A DNA stretch of 41,400 nt from Ensifer sp. LC163 (GTDB lineage Bacteria > Pseudomonadota > Alphaproteobacteria > Rhizobiales > Rhizobiaceae), in contig NZ_MBSS01000025.1 in assembly GCF_001695855.1 (NCBI RefSeq), forward strand, positions 7,501-48,900, in the 5' to 3' direction. A program made the position numbers and the translations under genes. How positions within the stretch are numbered: position 1 is the stretch's first letter; every line of letters begins with the position of its first letter. The notes under the pieces were generated by a model, which was not told the DNA's origin, ran no database searches, and saw only the letters and a list, made by a program, of their open reading frames with translations. Below are positions 1,036-35,110 of this stretch, in pieces.

Positions 1036-1142
1036 TACAGCGCCGCGCGTCTATTTAGACGCGCAAAGGACGCTGTAACGCTTTAAACTCGCTGCATAAT
1101 TTTCTCCTTAAATCGGTTCTGATTTAAGGAATTATGCAGTAG
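1036..1142 (+). repeat. RIME1-like mosaic repeat, copy A
   Basis: A roughly 107-base intergenic element made of two imperfect palindromes. The first starts TTACAGCG and ends CGCTGTAA; the second starts CTGCATAATT and ends AATTATGCAG. The same structure recurs near 14961, 17717, 21051 and, inverted, near 35009. It resembles the Rhizobium-specific intergenic mosaic element RIME1 as I remember it (about 100 bases, two palindromes). In this copy both palindromes are asymmetric: the first has AAAGGA in the right arm opposite only CC, and the second has an extra TTCT in the left arm. It lies 18 bases after the peptidase stop. Confidence 0.85.
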
Positions 1143-1207
1143 CGGTTTGGCGCCTTGATAGGCGGTGGCCGCGATCCCCGCAGCGACGGAACTTCAAGCG
1201 CATGAAC

Positions 1208-1239
1208 GAAAAAGGCCGCCCCGAAGGGCGGTCTTTTTC
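1208..1239 (-). terminator. Bidirectional intrinsic terminator of clpB
   Basis: A GC-rich hairpin (arms GCCGCCC and GGGCGGT around a CGAA loop) is bordered by A-runs on the left and T-runs on the right, so it can act on both strands. It lies 13 bases past the clpB stop and can also stop transcription arriving from the M23 gene. Confidence 0.8.
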
Positions 1240-1251
1240 AGTTTCTGTGGT

Positions 1252-3858
1252 TTAGGCGGCTTCCTTTTCCGTGCCGGCGCCACGCTTGAAGTTCAGCCGG
1301 TCGGAGCCGGCAAGAACCTTGATGGCGGATCCGTCCGGGAACTCGCCCTGCAGGATCTTTTCAGCGAGCGGATCCTGAAGATACTTCTGGATCGTCCGCT
1401 TCAAGGGGCGGGCGCCATAGGCAGGATCGTAGCCCTTTTCGGCCAGGAACGTCCGCGCGTCGTCCTCCAGTTCCAGCGTGATCTTGCGCTCGGACAGCAG
1501 CTTGCGCAGCCGGGCCAGCTGGATATCGACGATCGCGCCCATTTCCGAGCGACGCAGCCTGTGGAACAGGATGATCTCGTCGACGCGGTTCAGGAACTCC
1601 GGCCGGAAGGCCGACTTGACGACGTCCATCACCTGGTCGCGAACCACATCGCTGTCCTCGTTCTCACCGAGCCCGGTCAGATATTCCGCGCCGAGGTTCG
1701 AGGTCATGATGATCATCGTATTGCGGAAGTCGACGGTGCGACCCTGACCATCGGTCAGGCGACCGTCGTCGAGCACCTGCAGCAACACGTTGAAGACATC
1801 CGGATGCGCCTTCTCGATTTCGTCGAACAGCACGACCTGATAGGGCCGGCGGCGGACGGATTCGGTCAGCGCACCGCCTTCCTCGTAGCCGACATAGCCG
1901 GGAGGTGCGCCGATCAGCCGGGCAACGGAGTGCTTCTCCATATATTCCGACATGTCGACGCGCAGCAGCGCGGTCTCGTCATCGAACAGGAAGCGGGCGA
2001 GCGCCTTGGTCAACTCGGTCTTGCCCACCCCGGTCGGGCCGAGGAAGATGAACGAGCCGATCGGCCGGTTCGGATCCTGCAGGCCGGCGCGCGCACGGCG
2101 AACGGCACGCGATACGGCCTGGACGGCATCGCCCTGACCGACGACCCATTTCGCCAGTTCGTCTTCCATCCGAAGCAGCTTCTCGCGCTCGCCTTCCAGC
2201 ATCTTGTCGACCGGGATACCGGTCCAACGTGAAACCACATGGGCGATGTTGTCGGGGGTCACGACCTCCTGCACCATCGGATTGGCGTTGGCGTTCTCCT
2301 GGCTTTCGGCATCGGAAAGCTCTTTTTCGAGCTTGGGGATGACGCCATAGGTCAGTTCGCCGGCGCGCTGGAACTCACCTTTGCGCTGGACGATCGCCAG
2401 TTCGTTGCGGGCTTCGTCGAGCTGCTTCTTGAGGTCGGCGGCGCGGCCAAGCTTCTGCTTCTCCGCCTGCCAACGCGCCGTCAGCGCCGATGCCTGCTCT
2501 TCGAGCGAGACCAGATCGAGCTCAAGCTTCTCCAGCCGGTCTTTCGACGAGCTGTCGGTTTCCTTCTTCAGCGCTTCGCGCTCGATCTTCAGCTGCATGA
2601 TGCGCCGGTCGAGTTCGTCGAGTTCCTCGGGCTTGGAATCCACCTGCATGCGCAGACGTGAAGCCGCTTCGTCCATCAGGTCGATCGCCTTATCCGGCAA
2701 GAACCGGTCGGTGATGTAGCGGTTGGAAAGCGTCGCGGCGGCAACCAGCGCAGAGTCGGAGATCCGCACCTTGTGATGCTGCTCGTATTTTTCCTTCAGG
2801 CCGCGCAGGATCGAGATGGTGTCCTCGACCGTCGGCTCCTCGACCATGACGGGCTGGAAGCGGCGGGCAAGGGCTGCGTCCTTTTCGACGTGCTTGCGGT
2901 ATTCGTCGAGCGTGGTCGCGCCGACGCAATGCAGTTCGCCGCGCGCAAGCGCTGGCTTCAAGAGGTTGGAGGCATCCATCGCCCCTTCCGCCTTGCCGGC
3001 ACCGACCAGCGTGTGCATTTCGTCGATGAACAGGATGATCTCGCCGTTTTCCGCCTGCACTTCGTTGAGCACAGCCTTCAGCCGCTCTTCGAATTCGCCG
3101 CGGAACTTCGCGCCTGCGATCAACGCGCCCATGTCGAGCGCCATCAGGCGCTTGTCCTTCAGGCTTTCCGGCACGTCGCCATTGACGATGCGCAGAGCGA
3201 GGCCTTCGGCGATCGCCGTCTTGCCGACGCCGGGCTCGCCGATCAGAACCGGGTTGTTCTTGGTCCGGCGCGACAAGACCTGGATCGTGCGACGGATTTC
3301 GTCGTCACGGCCGATCACCGGGTCGAGCTTGCCTTCGCGCGCATCGGCCGTCAGGTCACGGGCGTATTTCTTCAGGCTGTCGAACCCCTGTTCGGCATTG
3401 GCGCTGTCGGCCGTGCGGCCCTTGCGGATGTCGTTGATGACCTGGTTGAGCTTGGTCGGCGTCACGCCGGCCTTCTTCAGGATGTCGGCCGTGGCGGCAG
3501 AACTTTCGATCGCCAGCGCCAGAAGCAGGCGCTCGACGGTCACGAAGCTGTCACCGGCTTTCTTGGCCGCTTCTTCGGCGCTCGAAAAGACGCGAGCAAG
3601 CGGCTGCGACAGATAGACCGAACCGTTGCCGCCGGAAACCTTCGGCAGTTTTGCCAGGGCCGCATCATTGCCGGCGCGCGCTTCGCGCGCATCGCCGCCC
3701 GCCCGCTCGATCAGCGAGGCGGCCATGCCCTGTTCGTCGTCGAGCAGCACTTTCAGCACATGCTCGGGCGTGAACTGCTGATGTCCCTGCGCCAACGCAT
3801 AGGTCTGCGCCGATTGCAGAAAACCGCGCACGCGTTCGGAATATTTCTCGATATTCAT
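1252..3858 (-). CDS. clpB: ATP-dependent disaggregase ClpB
   Basis: This 868-residue protein has the full length of the ClpB/Hsp104 family, which works with DnaK-DnaJ-GrpE to pull apart protein aggregates in the cytosol. Domains in order: N-terminal Clp repeat (about 1-145), AAA+ module 1 with Walker A GEPGVGKT at 207-214 and Walker B FIDEMH, the coiled-coil middle domain (about 410-530), and AAA+ module 2 with Walker A GPTGVGKT and Walker B LFDEIEKAH. The long middle domain separates it from ClpA and ClpC. The start is well fixed by GGAGGT, 6 bases upstream. A heat-shock-type promoter lies about 130 bases upstream and an intrinsic terminator follows the stop, so it appears to be a single-gene unit. 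Confidence 0.97.
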   Translation of the reverse strand: MNIEKYSERVRGFLQSAQTYALAQGHQQFTPEHVLKVLLDDEQGMAASLIERAGGDAREARAGNDAALAKLPKVSGGNGSVYLSQPLARVFSSAEEAAKKAGDSFVTVERLLLALAIESSAATADILKKAGVTPTKLNQVINDIRKGRTADSANAEQGFDSLKKYARDLTADAREGKLDPVIGRDDEIRRTIQVLSRRTKNNPVLIGEPGVGKTAIAEGLALRIVNGDVPESLKDKRLMALDMGALIAGAKFRGEFEERLKAVLNEVQAENGEIILFIDEMHTLVGAGKAEGAMDASNLLKPALARGELHCVGATTLDEYRKHVEKDAALARRFQPVMVEEPTVEDTISILRGLKEKYEQHHKVRISDSALVAAATLSNRYITDRFLPDKAIDLMDEAASRLRMQVDSKPEELDELDRRIMQLKIEREALKKETDSSSKDRLEKLELDLVSLEEQASALTARWQAEKQKLGRAADLKKQLDEARNELAIVQRKGEFQRAGELTYGVIPKLEKELSDAESQENANANPMVQEVVTPDNIAHVVSRWTGIPVDKMLEGEREKLLRMEDELAKWVVGQGDAVQAVSRAVRRARAGLQDPNRPIGSFIFLGPTGVGKTELTKALARFLFDDETALLRVDMSEYMEKHSVARLIGAPPGYVGYEEGGALTESVRRRPYQVVLFDEIEKAHPDVFNVLLQVLDDGRLTDGQGRTVDFRNTMIIMTSNLGAEYLTGLGENEDSDVVRDQVMDVVKSAFRPEFLNRVDEIILFHRLRRSEMGAIVDIQLARLRKLLSERKITLELEDDARTFLAEKGYDPAYGARPLKRTIQKYLQDPLAEKILQGEFPDGSAIKVLAGSDRLNFKRGAGTEKEAA

Positions 3859-34239: not shown

Positions 34240-34267
34240 TTTACACGAGGGTTTTTGCCTCGGTCAA
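34240..34267 (-). promoter_or_regulatory. Candidate tRNA-Leu promoter
   Basis: On the minus strand TTGACC (34262-34267), 16 bases, then TGTAAA (34240-34245). Transcription would begin about 20-25 bases before the mature tRNA. Confidence 0.45.
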
Positions 34268-34430
34268 CCATCATTTTCAACTTTGCTCGGCAACAATCAC
34301 GAAAGCGTGCAAAGGTGACGCTGAGGACGTGATTTACAGCGCGTGCCGTCGCACCTAAGAAGGCCATATTTAGTTGCAATGCAGCATATGCCGGACACTG
34401 ATCCGTTATGCTTTCCAGCGTGAGGTACGC

Positions 34431-34940
34431 ATGATCGACGCTTCCACCGCTTCTCGCCATCACCTGCTCATCGCCGTTCTCGTGACGCTCGGCATGGCGG
34501 CGACCGTTGGCGGCGCGCTCGGTTTCGAACACCTTGGCGGGTACATCCCCTGCGCGCTTTGCCTGCTGCAGCGCGATCCCTATTACTACGGCATCCCGCT
34601 CGGTATTCTGGCTGTTATCACCAGTGCCTTGAGGCTGCCGGCCTGGACGACGCGCACCCTGCTTCTGGCGATCGGCATCCTGATGCTCGTCGGTGCGGGC
34701 ATGGGCGTCTATCACTCGGGTGCGGAATGGGGCTTCTGGGAAGGTCCGTCGACCTGCGCGACGACGGCGCAGGGCGTATCGTCGAATGTCGGCGACCTCC
34801 TGGGCGATCTCGATTCCAAGCACGCCCCGTCCTGCTCTGAGGCGGCGCTTCGGGTGCTCGGTCTGTCCTTTGCCGGGTGGAATGTGATTGCCAGCCTGAT
34901 CTTTGCAGCGATCGCCTTGCGCGGCGCTGCGAAGGCCTGA
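34431..34940 (+). CDS. dsbB: Disulfide bond formation protein DsbB family
   Basis: A 169-residue inner-membrane quinone oxidoreductase with four predicted spans. The first periplasmic pair is C41/C44 in YIPCALCLLQRDPYY, and the second is C109 and C135 (GPSTCATT, APSCSEA), the arrangement that passes electrons from DsbA to ubiquinone. The length fits the family. The ATG at 34431 is preferred over one at 34374 because GAGG lies 8 bases upstream and the added residues are not membrane-like. A RIME-like repeat separates it from the converging HNH gene. Confidence 0.92.
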   Translation: MIDASTASRHHLLIAVLVTLGMAATVGGALGFEHLGGYIPCALCLLQRDPYYYGIPLGILAVITSALRLPAWTTRTLLLAIGILMLVGAGMGVYHSGAEWGFWEGPSTCATTAQGVSSNVGDLLGDLDSKHAPSCSEAALRVLGLSFAGWNVIASLIFAAIALRGAAKA

Positions 34941-35008
34941 TCCCCGAGACTGAAACGGCCTGCCTTCAGGAGATGGCCGCGTGACAATGAACTAAGCGGC
35001 GTGCGCAA

Positions 35009-35110
35009 TACTGCATAATTCCTTAAATCGGAATCGATTTAAGGAATTATGCAGTAACTCAAAGTGTTACAGCGACCTTTGCGCGTCATATTTGACGCGC
35101 GGCGCTGTAG
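35009..35110 (-). repeat. RIME1-like mosaic repeat, copy E (inverted)
   Basis: This copy lies in the opposite orientation. Its second palindrome is perfect over 20 bases (CTGCATAATTCCTTAAATCG and complement around 4 bases) because the extra 4 bases seen in copies A and C are absent. Its first palindrome is asymmetric (CC opposite AAAGGT), but the tip bases are TCA/TGA instead of TCT/AGA, a matched change. It lies between the ends of dsbB and the HNH gene. Confidence 0.87.

Follow-up and report, generated by a model that had tools for sequence, protein, structure and literature searches.

Palindrome arms of RIME-like repeats in Ensifer and other rhizobia appear to be corrected copy by copy from the opposite arm

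RIME1 (Osteras, Stanley and Finan 1995) is reportedly a multicopy element of rhizobia, about 106-112 bp long, with two large palindromes. The REP, REPIN and BIME elements, which go with RAYT transposases, are likewise abundant short palindromic repeats built of hairpins. Quasipalindrome-associated template-switch mutation is said to have been described by Ripley in 1982 and by Lovett and co-workers in Escherichia coli, and van Noort and co-workers reportedly made a genome survey of quasipalindrome correction in 2003. In this work, we have analysed a 41,400-nucleotide stretch of Ensifer sp. LC163 DNA (the window), in which sequence comparison finds five RIME-like copies, A to E, of 102-111 bp each, all with two palindromes (P1 and P2). 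They resemble RIME1 in length, in their two large palindromes, and in being multicopy and rhizobial, although this likeness concerns the general description and not a consensus sequence; no annotated RIME feature was seen in the records fetched. We propose, with a probability of about 0.85, that these are RIME-type repeats with two imperfect hairpins, the arms of which have been rewritten, one copy at a time, from the opposite arm.

Quasipalindrome correction as such is established: an imperfect inverted repeat becomes perfect or more nearly so, its opposite arm serving as template for the bases that are added (PMC7202029). The repeats analysed here are alike in that changes at the same locus raise arm complementarity (5 of 6 hairpin length changes of at least 3 nucleotides), and in that new bases match the copy's own other arm (23/26 for P2 and, aided by the search pattern, 10/10 for P1). 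Quasipalindrome studies have worked mainly with reporters and single hotspots, whereas RIMEs repeat one hairpin across numerous loci and strains. Natural template-switch cases in yeast genes and RNA stems are covered by PMC8604942 and PMC8794818, and the former refers to older studies of proteobacterial inverted repeats. In those cases arms were likewise made complementary in one step, as found by natural sequence comparison; the stems lie in genes, however, while a RIME is a dispersed repeat, i.e., many replicas of one starting hairpin. REP elements carry a GTAG/CGTC tag at one palindrome end (PMC3733652). RIMEs are REP/REPIN-like as abundant short hairpin repeats, many copies of which start with CTAC/TTAC and end with GTAG/GTA. 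The portions seen of PMC2245857, PMC2573895 and PMC2780559 mention RIMEs without arm evolution, and no paper joining template switching or quasipalindromes with RIME-type bacterial repeats was among the matches listed, in a search that most subscription journals lie outside. Within this limited literature search, the mechanism is known and the multicopy natural record appears to be new.

The copies differ in which arm is imperfect. Copy A (1035-1141, plus strand; P1 1035..1078, P2 1091..1141) is asymmetric in both palindromes, with CC opposite AAAGGA in P1 and an extra TTCT in the left arm of P2. Copy B (14960-15065, plus strand; P1 14960..15003, P2 15016..15065) has an asymmetric P1 (CC opposite AAAGGT) and a long-symmetric P2, in which TTGT on the left is matched by ACAA on the right. 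Copy C (17715-17825, plus strand; P1 17715..17762, P2 17775..17825) is long-symmetric in P1, where ACCTTT stands opposite AAAGGT in 22 uninterrupted pairs, and asymmetric in P2, with TTGT in the left arm only. Both of these long-symmetric states recur in other copies. Copy D (21050-21157, plus strand; P1 21050..21093, P2 21106..21157) has an asymmetric P1 (CC opposite AAAGGA/AAAGGT) and, as P2, a diverged imperfect hairpin that matches none of the other states. In copy E (35009-35110, minus strand; P1 35067..35110, P2 35009..35056), P1 is asymmetric (CC opposite AAAGGT) and P2 is short-symmetric, with the extra bases in neither arm and, unlike in most copies, the outer pair formed. An earlier note, made from the letters of this DNA, had described five copies with two imperfect palindromes each; all five are present, and its letters are right for P1 (CC opposite AAAGGN in A, B, D and E, ACCTTT in C) as well as for P2 (left-arm TTCT/TTGT in A/C, the matching ACAA in B, neither in E).

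Outside the switched columns, copies B and C show zero substitutions between their first CAGCG and their last ATGC, with a single-base difference at each outer end. Yet these two copies are corrected in different hairpins, B in P2 and C in P1. The arm pattern goes beyond chance, since the own genome holds 202 matches (at most 1 mismatch; a symmetric copy is counted twice) to the P1 half-site against 0 to a reversed-pattern control, and since the same discrete arm states are found again in other copies and species, among the matches listed.

The earlier note had proposed aligning the copies by locus and looking for arm switching between strains. We compared the chromids of five Sinorhizobium fredii strains (CCBAU 45436, 25509, 83666, SMH12 and GR64) at 32 orthologous loci with 101 copies. 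These come from 37 clusters, of which three reverse halves (including L325_3179), one partial match and one diverged element were left out; W06_L280_1503 and its partners are a real RIME locus and are counted among the 32. Variable columns are equally dense in the element (108/3267) and in the flanks (450/12,958), whereas length changes of at least 3 nucleotides number 8 in the 3267 element columns and 9 in the 12,958 flank columns. Of the 8, two affect the end of the element (11 and 3 nucleotides) and six fall in hairpins, and 5 of these six lead to a perfectly paired core stem, at 4 of the 32 loci. Thus, the arms do change within one locus between strains.

At locus 1, CCBAU 83666 has gained ACAA in the right arm of P2, four bases that are absent in the other four strains. 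At locus 2, SMH12 carries GG in place of TAAGGT in the right arm of P1 and a P2 left arm shorter by four; these two corrections are its only differences inside the element from CCBAU 83666 and 25509, and it has kept its own spacer between the two corrected arms; GR64 carries a few private differences. At the third locus, the P2 left arm of CCBAU 45436 is shortened, GTTC has become GTTT too, and an outer base also fits the other arm. At the fourth, P2 is three nucleotides shorter in three strains (L302/L303/L305) and asymmetric in SMH12. The direction of these changes is taken from the family's usual state. Among random changes of the same size, the chance of such an outcome per event is 2/45, 2/45 and 1/45 for the deletions, 2/12,032 for the 4-nucleotide insertion, and 1/640 for the 6-to-2 replacement in SMH12 P1, for which 0/42 single 4-nucleotide deletions give the same result. 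Apart from this, locus 1 is longer by about 1 kb in CCBAU 25509 (L459), and in SMH12 (L460) it has a different left flank and element start.

The added arm sequence matches the other arm of its own copy, unusual letters included. For P2, with the four-base insert positions left free in the search pattern, 23 of the 26 copies with four-base inserts in both arms have the exact own complement, with 7 different inserts in 7 genomes (TTGT 9, TTAT 5, TCAT, CTAT, TCGT and TTCT 2 each, TTGC 1). When the right inserts were shuffled among the 26 copies, the mean was 4.95 exact and the maximum 13 in 100,000 shuffles; over the 21-nucleotide P2 arms, own-arm differences total 23, against a shuffled mean of 98.7 (minimum 73). 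Some of the 23 exact copies may be related by descent. For long-symmetric P1, 10/10 parsed copies are exact, in six sequences (shuffled mean 2.4, with 10 reached in 2/100,000), but the pattern behind most copies already prescribed four of the six positions, and only the free positions and mismatches are informative; the free positions are complementary in 13/13 places listed. The exactness of short P1 says little, as the CC/GG letters were part of the query. Unusual letters stand in both arms of L048, L378 (with its core changed in both arms), L384, L354 and L357.

Asymmetry is the commonest state in both Ensifer and S. fredii. We estimated frequencies from 59 parsed copies of the own genome, which come from contiguous stretches or were picked by the P1 right half-site alone. 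In P2, 44 are asymmetric, 9 short-symmetric and 5 long-symmetric, with 1 not callable, i.e., 14 of 58 copies not picked on P2 state are symmetric. In P1, 56 are asymmetric, 1 is long-symmetric and 2 are not callable, though this way of picking under-counts short P1 and the stretches were themselves picked for holding such half-sites. Pattern searches of the own genome with at most 3 mismatches gave 216 matches to asymmetric P2 (some copies are mis-registered among the P2 matches), 5 long-symmetric P1, and 18 short-symmetric P1-like palindromes, for not all of which RIME membership is proven; the last pattern occurs at 63 places in all, including palindromes outside RIMEs. A wider set, enriched for symmetric copies, holds 168 parsed copies, copies of unreadable P1 or P2 being left out; the own genome contributes 102 of them and 13 congeners 65, while 1 is unassigned. 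The set splits into 81 symmetric in neither palindrome, 56 in P2 only, 29 in P1 only and 2 in both. This split indicates that the two hairpins change separately.

The following course of events would account for these patterns. During DNA synthesis through the hairpin, probably a folded single strand, the growing strand would switch to the other arm as template, most plausibly in replication and on the same molecule. It would copy that arm and then return, and in this way one arm would be overwritten by the exact complement of the other. Which arm is overwritten would decide the outcome, a longer hairpin as in C P1 and B P2 or a shorter one as in E P2. Copies B, C and E would each have been corrected in their own lineage, though for some of the short-symmetric copies the correction may have been inherited from a parent copy. 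The first reading offered in the earlier note, that one arm is rewritten from the other, is thus upheld in substance by the within-locus switches and the own-arm matching.

On the other hand, several observations, here and among the rival explanations below, weigh against this proposal. The earlier note had suggested that arm rewriting would make these repeats a natural record of hairpin-directed mutation; arm switching in individual copies bears this out, but not every symmetric copy need be an event of its own. The sixth S. fredii hairpin change is a 5-nucleotide loss of P1 loop and inner-stem bases in CCBAU 45436, and the short allele of L302/L303/L305 leaves an outer stem mismatch unrepaired. 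Inside the S. fredii elements, 6 of the 11 insertions or deletions of at least 2 nucleotides are not corrections: two at the element end, two of 2 nucleotides at or beside loops, one of 5 nucleotides in P1, and one 2-nucleotide gap in a P2 arm. Three of the 26 copies with inserts in both P2 arms (L200, L203 and L365) are not exact. Another genus counts on both sides: in Rhizobium laguerreae L095, a 13-nucleotide stretch of the P1 left arm is complementary to the right arm, at a locus that is asymmetric in R. leguminosarum (L088) and R. sophorae (L100), which favours the proposal, but two mismatches remain beside the corrected stretch. As for L200 (G005:C1:3346128) and L203 (G008:C22:936381), their sequences are alike, with a long-symmetric-like P2 containing one mismatch; they are probably one shared old locus, and this P2 may be an old correction in decay.

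Strand dependence belongs to the same side of the account. Leading-strand bias has been reported for E. coli quasipalindrome work (PMC8794818), while no bias was detected for the RIME arms: overwritten arm and fork direction show no association (10,4 / 13,6; Fisher p=1.0) in 33 rows of low power, at least two palindromes being counted in both orientations. Origin and terminus were placed on the two chromosome-sized contigs by sampling stretches for their GC skew and their number of GGGNAGGG sites; the search for the middle motif of the element was loose, most of its rows are not RIMEs, and only those with a called state were used. By reasoning, intra- and intermolecular routes predict opposite arms.

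P2 has a second imperfection, since the third pair outside its core is usually G opposite T. This pair is formed in 21/47 symmetric and 6/86 asymmetric copies with comparable neighbours (p=5e-7), a difference that speaks for the proposal. For 30 loci the selection was by similarity to an asymmetric query, so that G opposite T is over-represented among them; we therefore also compared without these loci (21/47 versus 6/54, p=2e-4). Four of the six asymmetric copies with the pair formed belong to L149-L152, loci that lie in different genomes but near one and the same gene. The direction of the second repair, another point on the opposing side, is as expected in 9 symmetric copies, opposite in 10 and unclear in 2. 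One continuous repair tract is therefore not the rule, and repairs of the two P2 imperfections look separate or repeated; repair of both in one tract was considered and dropped as unsupported.

The other explanation in the earlier note was that subfamilies coexist, i.e., that symmetric and asymmetric versions are old lineages, each spread by transposition. There are indeed several sequence types (AATT, GTTT, AAAGGA), and 21/35 short-symmetric and 10/23 long-symmetric P2 copies share their state with their nearest relative, proportions inflated by the symmetric-enriched set. Every symmetric state, however, is present in several sequence types, and the family tree requires, as the fewest changes, 9 for 10 copies of long P1, 21 for 21 of short P1, 17 for 23 of long P2 and 30 for 35 of short P2; this tree is weak, with about 90 columns and no shuffle control, which tempers our case. 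Clean old subfamilies without switching within a locus are contradicted by the switching between S. fredii strains, and we regard this explanation as unlikely. Ectopic gene conversion, with a symmetric copy at another site of the genome as the donor, is conceivable given the high copy number and near identity, and short-symmetric copies are still open to it. Yet the unusual letters shared by both arms of L048, L378, L384, L354 and L357 require a like-lettered donor, and at locus 1 the exact 55-nucleotide symmetric P2 has a full-length 100% match in 1 of 72,556 plasmid records, its own (best place per record; S. fredii chromosomes not covered). Moreover, locus 1 is the sole long-symmetric P2, and SMH12 locus 2 the sole short-symmetric P1, called in 110 S. 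fredii copies, and the spacer kept in SMH12 also speaks against a donor copy. Conversion thus seems highly improbable.

Replication slippage, or loss of a looped-out bulge, would change arm length without arm templating. The P2 shortenings drop TTGT-like bases next to a T run and, taken alone, could be slippage, a point to be held against our proposal; four of the five S. fredii corrections resemble losses. But slippage cannot add an ACAA complementary to the own arm (locus 1), cannot convert CC to ACCTTT, TCCTTC or GCCTTT, and cannot reach the GG of SMH12 P1 through any of the 42 single 4-nucleotide deletions, which makes it very unlikely as the general cause. Ordinary mutations followed by selection for a better RNA or DNA hairpin would be attractive insofar as perfect hairpins are stable terminator- or binding-like structures. 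Most parsed copies are asymmetric (44/58 in P2 and 56/57 in P1, in a sample partly picked by the P1 right arm), so that selection for pairing is not strong, and SMH12 locus 2 shows multi-base exact changes in a copy otherwise unchanged; we hold this explanation to be just as improbable as conversion.

If arms are corrected from each other as proposed, RIMEs offer the same imperfect hairpin at hundreds of sites in a single genome and at sites that several strains have in common. Each copy has two hairpins and more than one imperfection, and correction can go in two directions. The rate, direction, tract length and strand dependence of natural hairpin-directed mutation would become countable from existing genomes. 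A warning also follows, as paired changes in such repeats may look like covariation and suggest a selected RNA structure when they stem from a single mutational event. A doubtful further idea is that asymmetry is the mobile form: RIMEs would need, or be kept by, imperfect arms in order to move, and correction, perhaps during the element's own hairpin copying, would yield copies that seldom found new ones. If that were true, the family would in effect tally hairpin-directed mutations, most corrected copies being end points. When copies are ordered by rising distance to the nearest relative, symmetric P2 occurs in 8/22, 4/19 and 2/17, which is not significant (p=0.10). An apparently younger age of symmetric copies (p=0.009, ~0.005) was rejected as an artefact, duplicate removal having taken out young asymmetric copies.

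RIME copies were found in Ensifer, S. fredii, S. meliloti pSymB and Rhizobium records. On pSymB there are 21 matching places, some overlapping, including one long-symmetric and one short-symmetric P1.

In the window, copies A, B and E lie between long frames, as judged from coordinates and partly from Pfam matches; the neighbours of copy A are frames for a peptidase M23 and for a ClpB-like protein. A GNAT acetyltransferase frame (17807-18337, minus strand) runs at its 3' end into copy C, which gives it the last codons and the stop (17807-17825). The gene between copies B and C has its closest named relatives in Sinorhizobium sp. A49 and Ensifer adhaerens L18, though records very close to the window may be left out here. 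We compared the window copies at matching sites with stretches of 15 congeneric genomes. In the nearest congener, G002 (95.4-95.6% identity over aligned parts), the sites corresponding to copies A, B and C hold no element. Copy E is missing in 13 congeners, all with both flanks found, and G002 gave no answer for it. The insertion of copy D is shared with G002, and it is present in diverged or partial form in G005, G007, G008, G013 and G015. For copy C, the empty site in G002 (L157) reads CTTAGTC and the filled one CTTA[element]TAGTC, which suggests a 2-bp TA duplication on insertion. Within the same intergenic gap, G007 (L161) has a RIME in the opposite orientation, apparently a separate insertion.

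Two minor observations concern larger or similar repeats. Six congeners (G003, G004, G006, G010, G011 and G012) all contain a near-identical palindrome, CTGCGCCGCGCGT..ACGCGCGGCGCAG, which is probably not a RIME. In S. fredii 45436 (L252) and 25509 (L253), at different loci, a RIME lies within a larger repeat of ~300-380 bp that has inverted ends of its own and is, judging from this arrangement, a composite element.

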